Part shown: in pieces, positions 13,264 to 35,414 of the stretch
Position numbering within the stretch: the first letter of the stretch is position 1
Layout of the letters: every line of letters begins with the position of its first letter
Assembly: GCA_016222915.1 (NCBI GenBank)
Contig: JACRQA010000154.1
Location: 1 to 51,556 of the forward strand
DNA length: 51,556 nt
Source of the DNA: Nitrospirota bacterium
GTDB lineage: Bacteria > Nitrospirota > Thermodesulfovibrionia > UBA6902
Reading direction: 5' to 3'
Made by a program: the position numbers and the translations under genes
Notes under the pieces: generated by a model
Told to the model about the DNA's origin: nothing
Databases searched by the model: none
Seen by the model: only the letters and a program-made list of their open reading frames with translations

Positions 13264-13361
13264 AGGTTTCCGATAAAGGTAAACCCTGGGTAACCAGGGG
13301 GCACAAAGCCAAGGGTCCTTTTTGAAGTAAGCAAATAAGGATAGCCGGTTGTCGAAGAAAC
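13264..13361 (+). ncRNA. GEMM / cyclic di-GMP-I-like riboswitch
   Basis: CGATAAaGGTAAACC, CCTGG-GTAA-CCAGG (GNRA-capped P2), GGCACAAAGCC, AAGGATAGCCGG, closing TTGTCG; followed by terminator and SD. Deviates from GACGCAAAGCC. Confidence 0.78.
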
Positions 13362-13445: not shown

Positions 13446-15908
13446 ATGGTAAGCAAACAAAAGAAAATAGTTTCATTTTATGGATTAGCGCTCTGCTTGA
13501 TATTTTCCTTTCACAGTAACATTCTTTTTGCTGCCAGTGTCGTGCTTTCATGGGTACCCCCGTCTGCAAATAATGATCAGACGCCTTTAAATGATCTTGC
13601 GGGATACAACGTATATTTTGGTACGGCATCGGGCAATTACTCCGAGAAGGTTGATGTCGGAAATGTATTGACTTATCAAGTGAACAATCTGTCAACCGGG
13701 GTGACTTATTATTTCACGACTACTGCATATGACACGTCAGGCAATGAAAGCGGATACTCTAATGAGGTTATCAAGACATTTCCCGTCCCGGATACGACAG
13801 CTCCAGTGGTATCAGGGATACAGGCGACAAACATAACAAGCAGTTCTGTAACAATTGCATGGACAACTAATGAAGCTTCTGACACAAGGGTAGAGTACGG
13901 GACCAGCGTGTCATATGGAAGCACGACAACGGTCAATACAGCAATGGTGACCAGCCACAGCCAGAACATAAGCGGACTGGCGGCCTCAAAACTGTATCAT
14001 TACAGAGTGGTGAGCCGCGACTCGTCGGGCAATCAGGCTGTGTCCGGAGATTATACGTTCACAACACCGGCCCCGCCTGATACAACAGCTCCGGCAGTAT
14101 CGGGAGTACAGGCGACAAACATAACAAGCAGCTCTGTAACAATTGAATGGACAACTAATGAAGCTTCTGACACAAGGGTAGAGTACGGGACCAGCGTGTC
14201 ATATGGAAGCACGACAACGGTCAATACAGTAATGGTGACCAGCCACAGTCAGAACATAAGCGGATTGACGGCCTCAAAACTGTATCATTACAGAGTGGTG
14301 AGCCGCGACTCGTCGGGCAATCAGGCTGTGTCCGGAGATTATACGTTTACTACCCAGGCACTGCCTGTTCCAGTAGATTATTACTGTGATAGCGATAATG
14401 ACGGCTATATAAACATATCAAAAGCCGGGTCATGTACAGGATCGGGTTGCGCACCTGCCGGGTGTCAGTTAACACCGGGTAATGACTGCAATGACATTGT
14501 CCAGTCTATTAATCCAGGCATAAAAGATGATACATGCGACGGAATAGACAATAATTGTGACGGTACCCCTGACAACCACTTTGTTATTGCGGCCATTTCA
14601 TGCGGAACAGGTGTCTGCACATCAACAGGGCAAATCATATGCCAGTCCGGAACAGAAGTTAATACCTGCAGTCCGGGGATACGTTCAGAAAGCTCTGAAA
14701 CCACATGCGGTGATGGTCTTGACAATGATTGTGACGGTCTGGTTGATGAAGACTGTTTCCCGGACATCAAGGTCAGTAATGTGCTTTTAAGCGAAGATTT
14801 CTCTTCCGGGATACCGGCGACATGGTCGATACAAGGGGGATGGAGTGCAGACAATTCGTGCGGACAGACTATAACTTATCCATTCAGCGGGAAATACGCG
14901 ATAGTTGATTCTTCGTGTACAACTACTGATGTTGAAGAGCTGATTACAGAGCCGGTAGATACAGTTGCATGCAGCAGCGTAGCTCTTACCTATAGTAATC
15001 AGTATTATTCGTACTCCGGCAATATTGAAGTAGATGTAAGTAATGACGGGGGAACTACTTGGTCAAACAACATCAGCATCGGAGCCGACGACGGATATCC
15101 TGCTCCAAACTGGAAAGAGATCGACATTAGCTCCATTGCAGATGCAACTGATGCGCAGATAAAATTCAGATATGCAAACAGTACAGCAAACGGCTACTGG
15201 GCGCTTGATAATGTATGGGTTACATGTCAATCAAATCAGTTGGACTTCTCTTCAGAAATGCAGGCTGCGTCTTCAAGGACATTAATGATATCCAACCCGG
15301 GAACAGACATACTCACAATTAATGCAATTGATCTCGGAGGGCCCGATGCGTCAGAGTTCAGTATAGGTGCTAATGACAACTGTACAAACCAGGCATTGCA
15401 TTCCGATGAAACCTGCACTGTTGATGTAGTCTTTACACCAAAATCCGCAGGCCTGAAGAACGCAATCCTCGCCATTGCGTCGAATGACCCGGACACCTCG
15501 ATTGTGAATGTACCGCTGGCAGGTGTGGTAACTAACATAATTAACCCGGCTCCTGTAATTAAAGTCAATAATTCATCCGGGATTGTAAATATAGCCCGAG
15601 GTGGAAACATTGCAGTGAGTTTAGAGCTCGACCCCGGCAGCTTTATCGGCACAAATGCCGACTGGTGGGTATTGATGGAGTATCGTAACCGCTGGTACTA
15701 TTATGATTCATTGACAAACAAATGGAGGCGAGGATATTCATTCTACAAACAGGGGCAATTGGATAGTATGGGGCCGGTCAATCTTCTAAACAACACAAGA
15801 TGGTATTCAGGCCGGTACACCTTGTATTTTGGGGTCGATACAGCCATGAACGGCATTCAGGATTCCGGAAAATATTATTACGATACTGTCATCGTAGATG
15901 TTCAGTAA
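13446..15908 (+). CDS. Secreted fibronectin type III / MopE-motif / choice-of-anchor protein
   Basis: Signal peptide; FN3 domains; DNCDGTPD and DGLDNDCDGLVDEDC MopE motifs; ASPM/SPD-2/Hydin-like 'NPGTDILTINAIDLGGPDASEFSI'. Confidence 0.88.
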   Translation: MVSKQKKIVSFYGLALCLIFSFHSNILFAASVVLSWVPPSANNDQTPLNDLAGYNVYFGTASGNYSEKVDVGNVLTYQVNNLSTGVTYYFTTTAYDTSGNESGYSNEVIKTFPVPDTTAPVVSGIQATNITSSSVTIAWTTNEASDTRVEYGTSVSYGSTTTVNTAMVTSHSQNISGLAASKLYHYRVVSRDSSGNQAVSGDYTFTTPAPPDTTAPAVSGVQATNITSSSVTIEWTTNEASDTRVEYGTSVSYGSTTTVNTVMVTSHSQNISGLTASKLYHYRVVSRDSSGNQAVSGDYTFTTQALPVPVDYYCDSDNDGYINISKAGSCTGSGCAPAGCQLTPGNDCNDIVQSINPGIKDDTCDGIDNNCDGTPDNHFVIAAISCGTGVCTSTGQIICQSGTEVNTCSPGIRSESSETTCGDGLDNDCDGLVDEDCFPDIKVSNVLLSEDFSSGIPATWSIQGGWSADNSCGQTITYPFSGKYAIVDSSCTTTDVEELITEPVDTVACSSVALTYSNQYYSYSGNIEVDVSNDGGTTWSNNISIGADDGYPAPNWKEIDISSIADATDAQIKFRYANSTANGYWALDNVWVTCQSNQLDFSSEMQAASSRTLMISNPGTDILTINAIDLGGPDASEFSIGANDNCTNQALHSDETCTVDVVFTPKSAGLKNAILAIASNDPDTSIVNVPLAGVVTNIINPAPVIKVNNSSGIVNIARGGNIAVSLELDPGSFIGTNADWWVLMEYRNRWYYYDSLTNKWRRGYSFYKQGQLDSMGPVNLLNNTRWYSGRYTLYFGVDTAMNGIQDSGKYYYDTVIVDVQ
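13791..14355 (+). repeat. Tandem 288-bp FN3 domain duplication
   Basis: DTTAP(V/A)VSG(I/V)QATNITSSSVTI(A/E)WTTNEASDTRVEYG... at 13791 and 14079, nearly identical at DNA level. Confidence 0.95.
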
Positions 15909-32537: not shown

Positions 32538-32758
32538 GGCCGCTTCGGTTGATAGTACATTCACGATGGTGCAATCGGAAGTGGTCCCTGGACCAAACTG
32601 TTCTTTGCGGTCTTGCGCAGCCATGCTGATTTGTAAATTTTATATGTGTTAAATCTATCTTGACTTATTGTATTTTTTACTATATATAAATATCATGAAT
32701 TATTTTATTATAGAACGCTGACCGCTATAATTTATATCAGCAGTTGAATAATTGAATT

Positions 32759-33538
32759 ATGAAAAAAAGAGCTATCGATAGAATCCCTGCAAATCTCAAG
32801 GCAGAATTTTTCTGGAGTGACAGGGTCAACACCGGACATATACTCGACCTGTCGGAAAACGGCTTCCTTATAAAGACTGACTCATGCCCTCTCATAAAGG
32901 CGAAATTCGATCTTAACATTGTCCTTCAGGATGATGTCCTTAAGGTCCCCGTTAAAGTCCGAAGGATAGTAAAGAATGATAATAACTATGATGCCATAGG
33001 AGTGGAAATAGTTAACCCGCCAAAAGAGTATCTTGAATATGTAGATTCGCTAAGGTGGGAACGGATCAAGGGAGTTAAAACAAGCGGGCAAACAATAAAG
33101 CTCTATGTCTGCAAAATATGTCATCACATTGCATTTGATCGCGCACCGCTAAATTGCCCCATCTGCAGCTCGACAATTGAGAGTTTTGAGAAGGCCCCTG
33201 AAGCTATTAAAAAACCGGACGACTTTTCCGAGCTCTCTGAATTCGAGAAGAAACATATTCCCGTAATTAACATCTTGAAGGAAAATGGATATGTCAATGC
33301 TCACATAACTGTCGGAGAGATAAATCATGAGATGAATATTGATGACCATATTTCACATATTGATTTTTATTACAATGCCCCCTTTATTAATAAAAAGTGC
33401 ATATCGAGACTGAGTTTTAATTGCGAGAAAATGCATCCTTCAACAACCCTACGCTTCGATAATGCAACCCAGGGAGTACTGACAGTCATCAGCAACTGCA
33501 GCGCCCACGGAAACTGGCTGTCCAAAATCACAATCTAG
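32759..33538 (+). CDS. PilZ + rubredoxin-like + superoxide reductase-like fusion protein
   Basis: PilZ RAIDR and DLSENG; CKIC...CPIC rubredoxin-like knuckles; KHIPVI, VGEINHEM..DDH, NCSAHGNW SOR motifs. Confidence 0.75.
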   Translation: MKKRAIDRIPANLKAEFFWSDRVNTGHILDLSENGFLIKTDSCPLIKAKFDLNIVLQDDVLKVPVKVRRIVKNDNNYDAIGVEIVNPPKEYLEYVDSLRWERIKGVKTSGQTIKLYVCKICHHIAFDRAPLNCPICSSTIESFEKAPEAIKKPDDFSELSEFEKKHIPVINILKENGYVNAHITVGEINHEMNIDDHISHIDFYYNAPFINKKCISRLSFNCEKMHPSTTLRFDNATQGVLTVISNCSAHGNWLSKITI

Positions 33539-33672: not shown

Positions 33673-34203
33673 ATGGAGATACCACTACAAATCAGAAGTC
33701 GAAACATTGAACTTAGTGATGCCATAGAATCTGAAATCCGGAAGCGGGCGGAAAAACTGGATAAATTATATAACCGAATAACAAGATGCAAAGTAATTGT
33801 GGAGTCGCCTCATCATCAAAGCCATCAGGGCAAAAGATATAATGTTCAGATTGTGATGACTGTGCCCGGAGCTGAACTGGTCGTAACGCGAAACCCTGAT
33901 GAAGACATATATGTAGCCATCAGGGACAGTTTCAATGCAGCCTTCAGACAACTTGAAGACTATTCAAGACGCCAGAGGGGTGATATAAAACAACATGGGG
34001 AAGCGCCTGTCGCGGTGATAAGCGCCATCTTCACCGATAAGGGCTACGGCTTTATAACTACATCTGACAACCAGGAGATTTATTTCCACAAAAACAGCGT
34101 CCTGAACAGCGACTTTAAGCATCTTGAGGTAGGGATGAAAGTGCGTTATTCAGAAGGGAAAGGCGACAAGGGACCTCAGGCCAGCACAGTCACCTTAATC
34201 TGA
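33673..34203 (+). CDS. Ribosome hibernation promoting factor with C-terminal cold-shock domain
   Basis: HPF/RaiA N-domain (ELSDAIESEIRKRAEKLDKLY...DEDIYVAIRDSFNAAFRQLEDY) and CSD (KGYGFITTSDNQEIYFHKNSV); SD aaaggagg before 33673. Confidence 0.88.
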   Translation: MEIPLQIRSRNIELSDAIESEIRKRAEKLDKLYNRITRCKVIVESPHHQSHQGKRYNVQIVMTVPGAELVVTRNPDEDIYVAIRDSFNAAFRQLEDYSRRQRGDIKQHGEAPVAVISAIFTDKGYGFITTSDNQEIYFHKNSVLNSDFKHLEVGMKVRYSEGKGDKGPQASTVTLI

Positions 34204-35078: not shown

Positions 35079-35414
35079 ATGTTAGAACTTGAAACAAAAC
35101 ATGAACAATGCACTATTTGCAAGCATGAATACACGTCAATTAATACTGAAGTTATGCCGGGTATCAAAATTTATGTTTGTGATACCTGCCTGGAAGCCGC
35201 TAAATATAACTTCATCTGGGTTTGCATGAGTTGCGGTCAAGTATATCTCAGGCCCAAGAAACTTGTAATCGAAAGAGTGAAGGATGTAGAGCTAAAAAGA
35301 GCATATATGCTTTGCGAAGATATGCAGATAATCCAGGGAATTGATATGTGTATCGCTTGCGATCCTGAAGGAATCGTAAATTATATGGACGCACAGAAAA
35401 CAGCAACCTGCTGA
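35079..35414 (+). CDS. Cys-rich (zinc-ribbon-like) small protein
   Basis: CTIC, CDTC, CMSC, CIAC knuckles; SD aaaggaga. Confidence 0.7.
   Translation: MLELETKHEQCTICKHEYTSINTEVMPGIKIYVCDTCLEAAKYNFIWVCMSCGQVYLRPKKLVIERVKDVELKRAYMLCEDMQIIQGIDMCIACDPEGIVNYMDAQKTATC

Follow-up and report, generated by a model that had tools for sequence, protein, structure and literature searches.

Canonical superoxide reductases (SORs) work at rates near 1e9 per M per s, and their oxidised His4Cys site shows an S-to-Fe absorption band near 650 nm. PilZ domains that carry the RxxxR and [D/N]xSxxG motifs are usually binders of c-di-GMP, and rubredoxin knuckles, each with one iron, carry out single-electron transfer. 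The SOR active site is an iron held by four histidines and one cysteine, Fe(His)4(Cys), and the accessible part of the SORGOdb description (PMC3116461) divides the enzymes into seven classes, among them Tat-SOR, HTH-Dx-SOR and one termed 'atypical' that collects rare fusions, and describes no PilZ class.

The stretch of DNA analysed here (the window, 51,556 nucleotides of a Nitrospirota genome, contig JACRQA010000154.1) contains a gene in which a PilZ domain and a rubredoxin-SOR module meet in one reading frame. An earlier note had read the product in this way and had proposed a second-messenger-gated superoxide reductase or a redox sensor, with a His4Cys iron site.

Architecture of the fusion protein

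The three domains of that reading, PilZ, then a rubrerythrin-type rubredoxin knuckle, then SOR, are recovered in the 259-residue protein by Pfam, by profile searches of the PDB and, from its AlphaFold model, by Foldseek (Table 1). PF07238, PF21349 and PF01880 are all matched by each of 17 aligned fusion homologues, although PF21349 reaches 23.3 bits in the window's protein, slightly below its curated cut-off of 26.5. The knuckle matches the rubrerythrin structures 1nnq and 3mps in the PDB search; its four cysteines (C118, C121, C133, C136) are invariant in the fusions and are spaced CxxC-x11-CxxC, the desulforedoxin pattern CxxCx15CC being absent. As a single sequence searched against solved structures, the fusion finds superoxide reductases and rubrerythrins. 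The SOR fold expected in residues 155-259 was recovered by PF01880 (E 1e-12), by hmmsearch of the PDB (E 3e-11; the HMMER profile of the 17 fusions matches the Nanoarchaeum SOR at E 2.7e-11) and by Foldseek (TM 0.77-0.79; for the SOR domain, TMt 0.77 to 6gq8 and 0.79 to 2hvb).

The AlphaFold2 model, built from nine sequences, has a mean pLDDT of 67.5 over the whole fusion, and 76.7 with a pTM of 0.76 when residues 108-259 are modelled; SORs are the top Foldseek PDB matches of both models. The whole-protein model also matches the PilZ structures 5xly (MapZ with c-di-GMP), 4xrn (PA PilZ) and 4rt1 (Alg44). The c-di-GMP signature proposed at R4/R8 and D30-G35 is present in all 17 fusions, with Asp or Asn at residue 30, and from these motifs the N-terminal domain is predicted to bind c-di-GMP. 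Of the residues singled out earlier, R4, R8, S32, G35, the four knuckle cysteines, H166, H190, C247 and H250 were correctly positioned and are invariant in the 17 fusions. The protein is probably cytoplasmic.

Table 1. Features of the fusion gene and of the surrounding window, in order of position.
Feature	Position	Strand	Basis
c-di-GMP-I riboswitch	13268-13356	+	RF01051, 60.6 bits vs gathering 35
820-aa protein with repeated ATNITSSSVTI units	13446-15908		directly 3' of the riboswitch
21-base element, TTGCGCAnnnATRCnGATWTR	32613-32633	+	aligned upstream regions of 6 genomes
Promoter-like pair, TTGACT-17-TATATA	32660-32688	+	aligned upstream regions of 6 genomes
PilZ-rubredoxin-SOR fusion gene	32759..33538	+	single open frame, 259 aa
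PilZ domain, residues 3-91	32765..33031	+	PF07238 E 4.2e-9; Foldseek PilZ structures
RxxxR motif, R4-R8, predicted c-di-GMP site	32768..32782	+	R4, R8 invariant in 17/17 fusions
[D/N]xSxxG motif, D30-G35, predicted c-di-GMP site	32846..32863	+	S32, G35 invariant in 17/17 fusions
Rubrerythrin-type rubredoxin knuckle, residues 116-144, C118xxC121...C133PxC136	33104..33190	+	PF21349 E 4.3e-5
SOR (desulfoferrodoxin ferrous-iron) domain, residues 160-254	33236..33520	+	PF01880 E 1.3e-12
H166, conserved iron-ligand His (Dvu H49)	33254..33256	+	66/66 SOR domains
H190, conserved iron-ligand His (Dvu H69)	33326..33328	+	66/66 SOR domains
D196, where canonical SORs have a ligand His (Dvu H75 / Pfu H47)	33344..33346	+	alignment of 66 SOR domains
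H197, on non-ligand column (Pfu H48 / Dvu Y76)	33347..33349	+	alignment
C214, fusion-specific Cys	33398..33400	+	19/19 fusions, 0/47 others
C222, fusion-specific Cys	33422..33424	+	19/19 fusions, 0/47 others
C247 (axial Cys) and H250 (fourth conserved His of the site)	33497..33508	+	C247 66/66; H250 19/19 fusions
Ribosome hibernation factor fused to a cold-shock domain	33673-34203	+	PF02482, PF00313; downstream of fusion gene
Conserved cysteine-rich 111-aa protein (several CxxC)	35079-35414	+	no Pfam match; kept in L003, L005
Second PilZ protein, about 120 aa	40202-40516	+

Distribution and origin

The same architecture, which the earlier note had suggested seeking in other genomes, turned up in a survey of 60 relatives of the window's genome, 37 of them from its own Thermodesulfovibrionia (Nitrospirota) family: 18 of these 37, belonging to seven genera, carry the fusion, at 41-85% identity. 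The carriers are uncultured, apparently anaerobic bacteria; one (G017) has two copies, in the second of which the PilZ frame is disrupted, and in another (G003) the copy is cut by the contig end. No full-length fusion was found outside the family in a 395-genome sample of the Nitrospirota phylum. The sole search beyond Nitrospirota, a tblastn-confirmed scan of 85,462 species with one genome per species that captures close relatives only, found these solely in Nitrospirota or in drafts of similar origin that lack a classification, with Nitrospiraceae SURF_66 and Thermodesulfovibrionia bacterium DeMMO3_26 as examples.

In a maximum-likelihood tree, many of whose inner forks are poorly settled because the sequences are short, all 19 fusions group together (100/95) within a clade shared with unfused rubredoxin-SORs (100/100). 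The simplest reading of this tree would be a single fusion event, with the change of iron ligand and the extra cysteines described below falling on the same branch; being one evolutionary event, it ties ligand loss to fusion through a single coincidence that was then conserved, not through a repeated correlation. Fused and unfused forms occur together in five genomes (G011, G014, G015, G029, G036).

Pairwise dN/dS is about 0.09-0.12 between the window's gene and three relatives, 0.10 between two sequences of another genus and 0.31 for the close pair L007/L006; in four comparisons with the window, that of the SOR domain is 0.06-0.09. With most values near 0.1, the gene is maintained by purifying selection and is therefore functional.

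An altered iron site

Sixty-six SOR domains from fusion-carrying and related genomes were aligned, comprising the 19 fusions and 47 unfused proteins (14 rubredoxin-SORs, 17 of an 'EKKHMPVI' type, 8 neelaredoxin-like, 4 with a Tat-like signal and 4 desulfoferrodoxins). Several of the 'EKKHMPVI'-type genes adjoin a rubrerythrin gene. At the third equatorial ligand position, which from the numbering of established SOR structures we take to be that of Pyrococcus H47 and D. vulgaris H75, 46 of the 47 unfused proteins have His and the fusions have Asp (17) or Asn (2). H197 had been put forward as the fourth equatorial histidine, a role it loses in the profile alignment, where D196 stands on the ligand column and H197 on the next, a column that in other SORs holds His, Tyr, Phe, Leu or Trp. 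This register is identical in the HMMER alignment to solved 1Fe-SORs and among the 47 unfused SORs, and is fixed by the downstream strand I-x-x-I-D-x-Y. Residue 197 is His in 17 fusions, and Arg and Tyr in one each of two others that are otherwise intact. Because it is D196, not H197, that lies on the ligand column, the seven-residue separation of the central histidines remarked on earlier reflects loss of a ligand His; a one-residue spacing variant of the pair is excluded by the register against solved SORs and by the Arg and Tyr at 197.

The expectation of a His4Cys site therefore fails: set against the four-histidine-plus-cysteine definition of an SOR, the fusions keep three His and the Cys, and have Asp or Asn at the fourth position in 19 of 19. 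The last His, H250, is matched by His in all but one unfused protein. Two unfused rubredoxin-SORs also vary at ligand positions, L125 712-1164 (G011) with Asn at the same ligand-His position, apparently an independent change, and L115 (G041) with Asn in place of the last His.

The second deviation noticed earlier, K164 where Glu47 provides the sixth ligand of oxidised SOR, is real but does not mark a special site: Lys is also found there in 16 of the 17 'EKKHMPVI'-type SORs of the same genomes, whose His ligands are all intact, and so the change carries little weight. According to the title of a study cited in PMC3116461, the Nanoarchaeum SOR reduces superoxide without the Glu ligand. Lys165, which corresponds to the catalytic Lys48 of SOR beside the first ligand His, is retained in 18 of the 19 fusions.

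Ahead of C214, one of the two cysteines found in fusions only, every fusion has a loop of about five extra residues, and the AlphaFold2 model has C214 at one end of a predicted strand region and C222 at the other. Taken together, these observations make the SOR half look as if it had been retained for the sake of its metal ligands while ceasing to be canonical.

Genomic context

The 3-Mb genome of the window encodes the c-di-GMP system, with 21 GGDEF and 34 PilZ matches. It has two other SORs, of which the one on contig C155 is neelaredoxin-like and the one on C223 carries a Tat-like signal. The gene ahead of the fusion, on the same strand, appears by eye to be sugar-phosphate deacetylase-like and has no Pfam match. 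The hibernation factor/cold-shock gene follows the fusion on the same strand in the window and at L001, L005 and L007; other genomes differ, and in three of them a BioD-like gene adjoins the fusion. No constant gene neighbour that might hint at a partner emerged across the genomes compared, so that the neighbourhood clue is weak. A plasmid search gave no match. The riboswitch listed in Table 1 gives the window another type of c-di-GMP device, and the repeat protein directly 3' of it is probably secreted or at the surface.

Of the two elements seen on aligning upstream regions from six genomes, the 21-base one is absent from one genome; its exact matches lie only at the fusion gene, in four genomes. 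A regulon search yielded no convincing second target for it, the hits checked at two loci overlapping the start of an MlaD-like CDS; it is possibly an activator site. An automatic promoter scan made no call at the TTGACT-17-TATATA pair; a promoter-like stretch with TTGA(C/T)TTAT is present upstream of the fusion in several relatives.

What the altered site may do

The reading that we favour, and to which we give an even chance, is that the fusion is an effector of c-di-GMP in which a repurposed Fe(His3-Asp/Asn-Cys) site acts as a redox or small-ligand switch, in preference to a gated detoxifying enzyme. A single recruitment of a rubredoxin-SOR electron-transfer module, in one bacterial family, would have been followed by remodelling, in which Asp or Asn replaced one of the module's four equatorial histidines and two cysteines were added. 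In the mechanism that we infer, and this extends to the iron content of the protein, its c-di-GMP binding, the electron transfer, the partner and the direction of control, the iron of the Cys4 knuckle would pass electrons to the derived site, and the redox or ligand state of that site would be read jointly with c-di-GMP occupancy to control docking of the partner. Replacement of the histidine should alter the potential of the iron and may open a coordination position; such a site would be better suited to sensing or switching than to detoxification, and the cell's canonical SORs would see to the removal of superoxide in bulk. That the fusion founds a new class among c-di-GMP effectors, its SOR iron site, repurposed and with the His-to-Asp/Asn change, serving as a direct sensor of redox state, oxygen or NO that is integrated with the messenger on a single chain, is a more tentative proposal, somewhat short of an even bet. 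Of the two halves of the earlier inference, a redox sensor coupled to c-di-GMP is the better.

Several observations run against a switch. Near-universal Lys165 and the invariance of three His and the Cys are compatible with superoxide reduction, ligand change and fusion coincide in one evolutionary event only, the mean pLDDT of the whole-protein model is 67.5, and no constant neighbour offers a clue to the partner.

The first of these leads to the best-placed rival, a functional superoxide reductase that c-di-GMP, acting through PilZ, would control in activity or location, with the Asp or Asn tolerated or H197 swinging in as the fourth His. It draws on the conserved SOR fold as well as on the residues just named; the knuckle could supply electrons, as centre I may in 2Fe-SOR, and residue 197 is usually His. 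This reading is weakened, however, by a ligand position that is Asp or Asn, never His, in every fusion, while residue 197 sits on a non-ligand column and can be Arg or Tyr in otherwise intact proteins, and the same genome has other, canonical SORs; we judge it unlikely.

A scaffold dead to metal, in which the SOR half lacks iron and is only a protein-docking module for PilZ, would account for the clade-wide loss of a ligand His and for the added loop and cysteines. Yet H166, H190, C247, H250 and the four knuckle cysteines are invariant among proteins that differ as widely as these, and a dead site would not need them, which makes the scaffold quite improbable. Invariant ligands could instead hold zinc or another structural metal in a redox-inert site made of H166, H190, H250, C247, D196 and the new cysteines; His/Asp/Cys sets suit Zn, and C214 and C222 are themselves invariant. 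The nearest relatives are nevertheless redox iron proteins, and C214 and C222, if the modelled strand region is right, could not easily both reach the site, so that we rate this less probable again. An artefact of assembly or gene prediction that merged two genes, conceivable where the sources are mostly draft assemblies, is ruled out by the recurrence of the same one-frame fusion in 18 genomes of seven genera, in a single clade.

If the favoured interpretation, a c-di-GMP effector with a repurposed iron site, is true, no earlier case in the literature searched physically couples c-di-GMP signalling to a non-haem iron redox module from the SOR family. The fusion suggests an undescribed link between biofilm or motility signalling and redox state, and would show how bacteria with a large c-di-GMP network could make attachment or motility depend on exposure to oxidants. 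The fusion also offers a natural experiment on the role of one equatorial SOR histidine, in a clade that lost that residue and kept every other ligand.

Comparison with known systems

A full-text literature search, in which most subscription papers were beyond reach, found no PilZ domain or c-di-GMP joined to SOR, the papers examined that contain both terms being unrelated; within the literature searched, the earlier claim that no such fusion has been described holds.

With 1Fe-SORs, or neelaredoxins (PF01880, TIGR00332; 1do6 and 2hvb of Pyrococcus, 6gq8 of Nanoarchaeum), the fusion shares the fold (TMt 0.72-0.79), H166, H190, C247, H250, Lys165 and the HGxW motif. It differs from them in having Asp or Asn for the fourth ligand His and in its PilZ and rubredoxin domains, and its TIGR00332 score of 38.2 bits is below the cut-off of 61.9. 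Like the 2Fe-SORs, or desulfoferrodoxins (Dx-SOR), as presented in the accessible text of SORGOdb (PMC3116461), it has a Cys4 iron domain followed by an SOR domain; unlike them, its Cys4 domain is of the rubrerythrin CxxC...CxxC type and not the desulforedoxin CxxCx15CC type, PilZ stands in front and the ligand is changed. HTH-Dx-SOR, as outlined in the same source (PMC3116461), is a precedent for a regulatory domain ahead of a Cys4-SOR, although there the domain is a DNA-binding HTH and here it is PilZ.

The sister group is formed by unfused rubredoxin-SORs from the same taxonomic order, likewise a knuckle and an SOR domain (for example L009 and L028; about 150 aa), which are about 45% identical to the fusion, lack PilZ and C214/C222, and have the ligand His intact in 13 of 14. 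Their genes adjoin TrkA-like, TrkH-like or SpeD-like genes in many genomes (L118, L119, L120, L122, L124, L125 and L126 have a TrkA-like neighbour, mostly with TrkH-like and SpeD-like genes as well, all named by sequence reading), a conserved setting for a domain of oxidative stress, and at 12 loci no PilZ gene lies next to them.

PilZ joined to another functional domain, with the c-di-GMP motif, is known from PilZ-DnaK of Myxococcus (in the portion of PMC10313047 available), Alg44 and BcsA. What sets the fusion apart from described PilZ effectors is its partner, a rubredoxin-SOR module, for which the literature searched has no counterpart. The fusion is best classed as a putative PilZ effector whose partner domain is undescribed in that role and has an active site that is itself altered.
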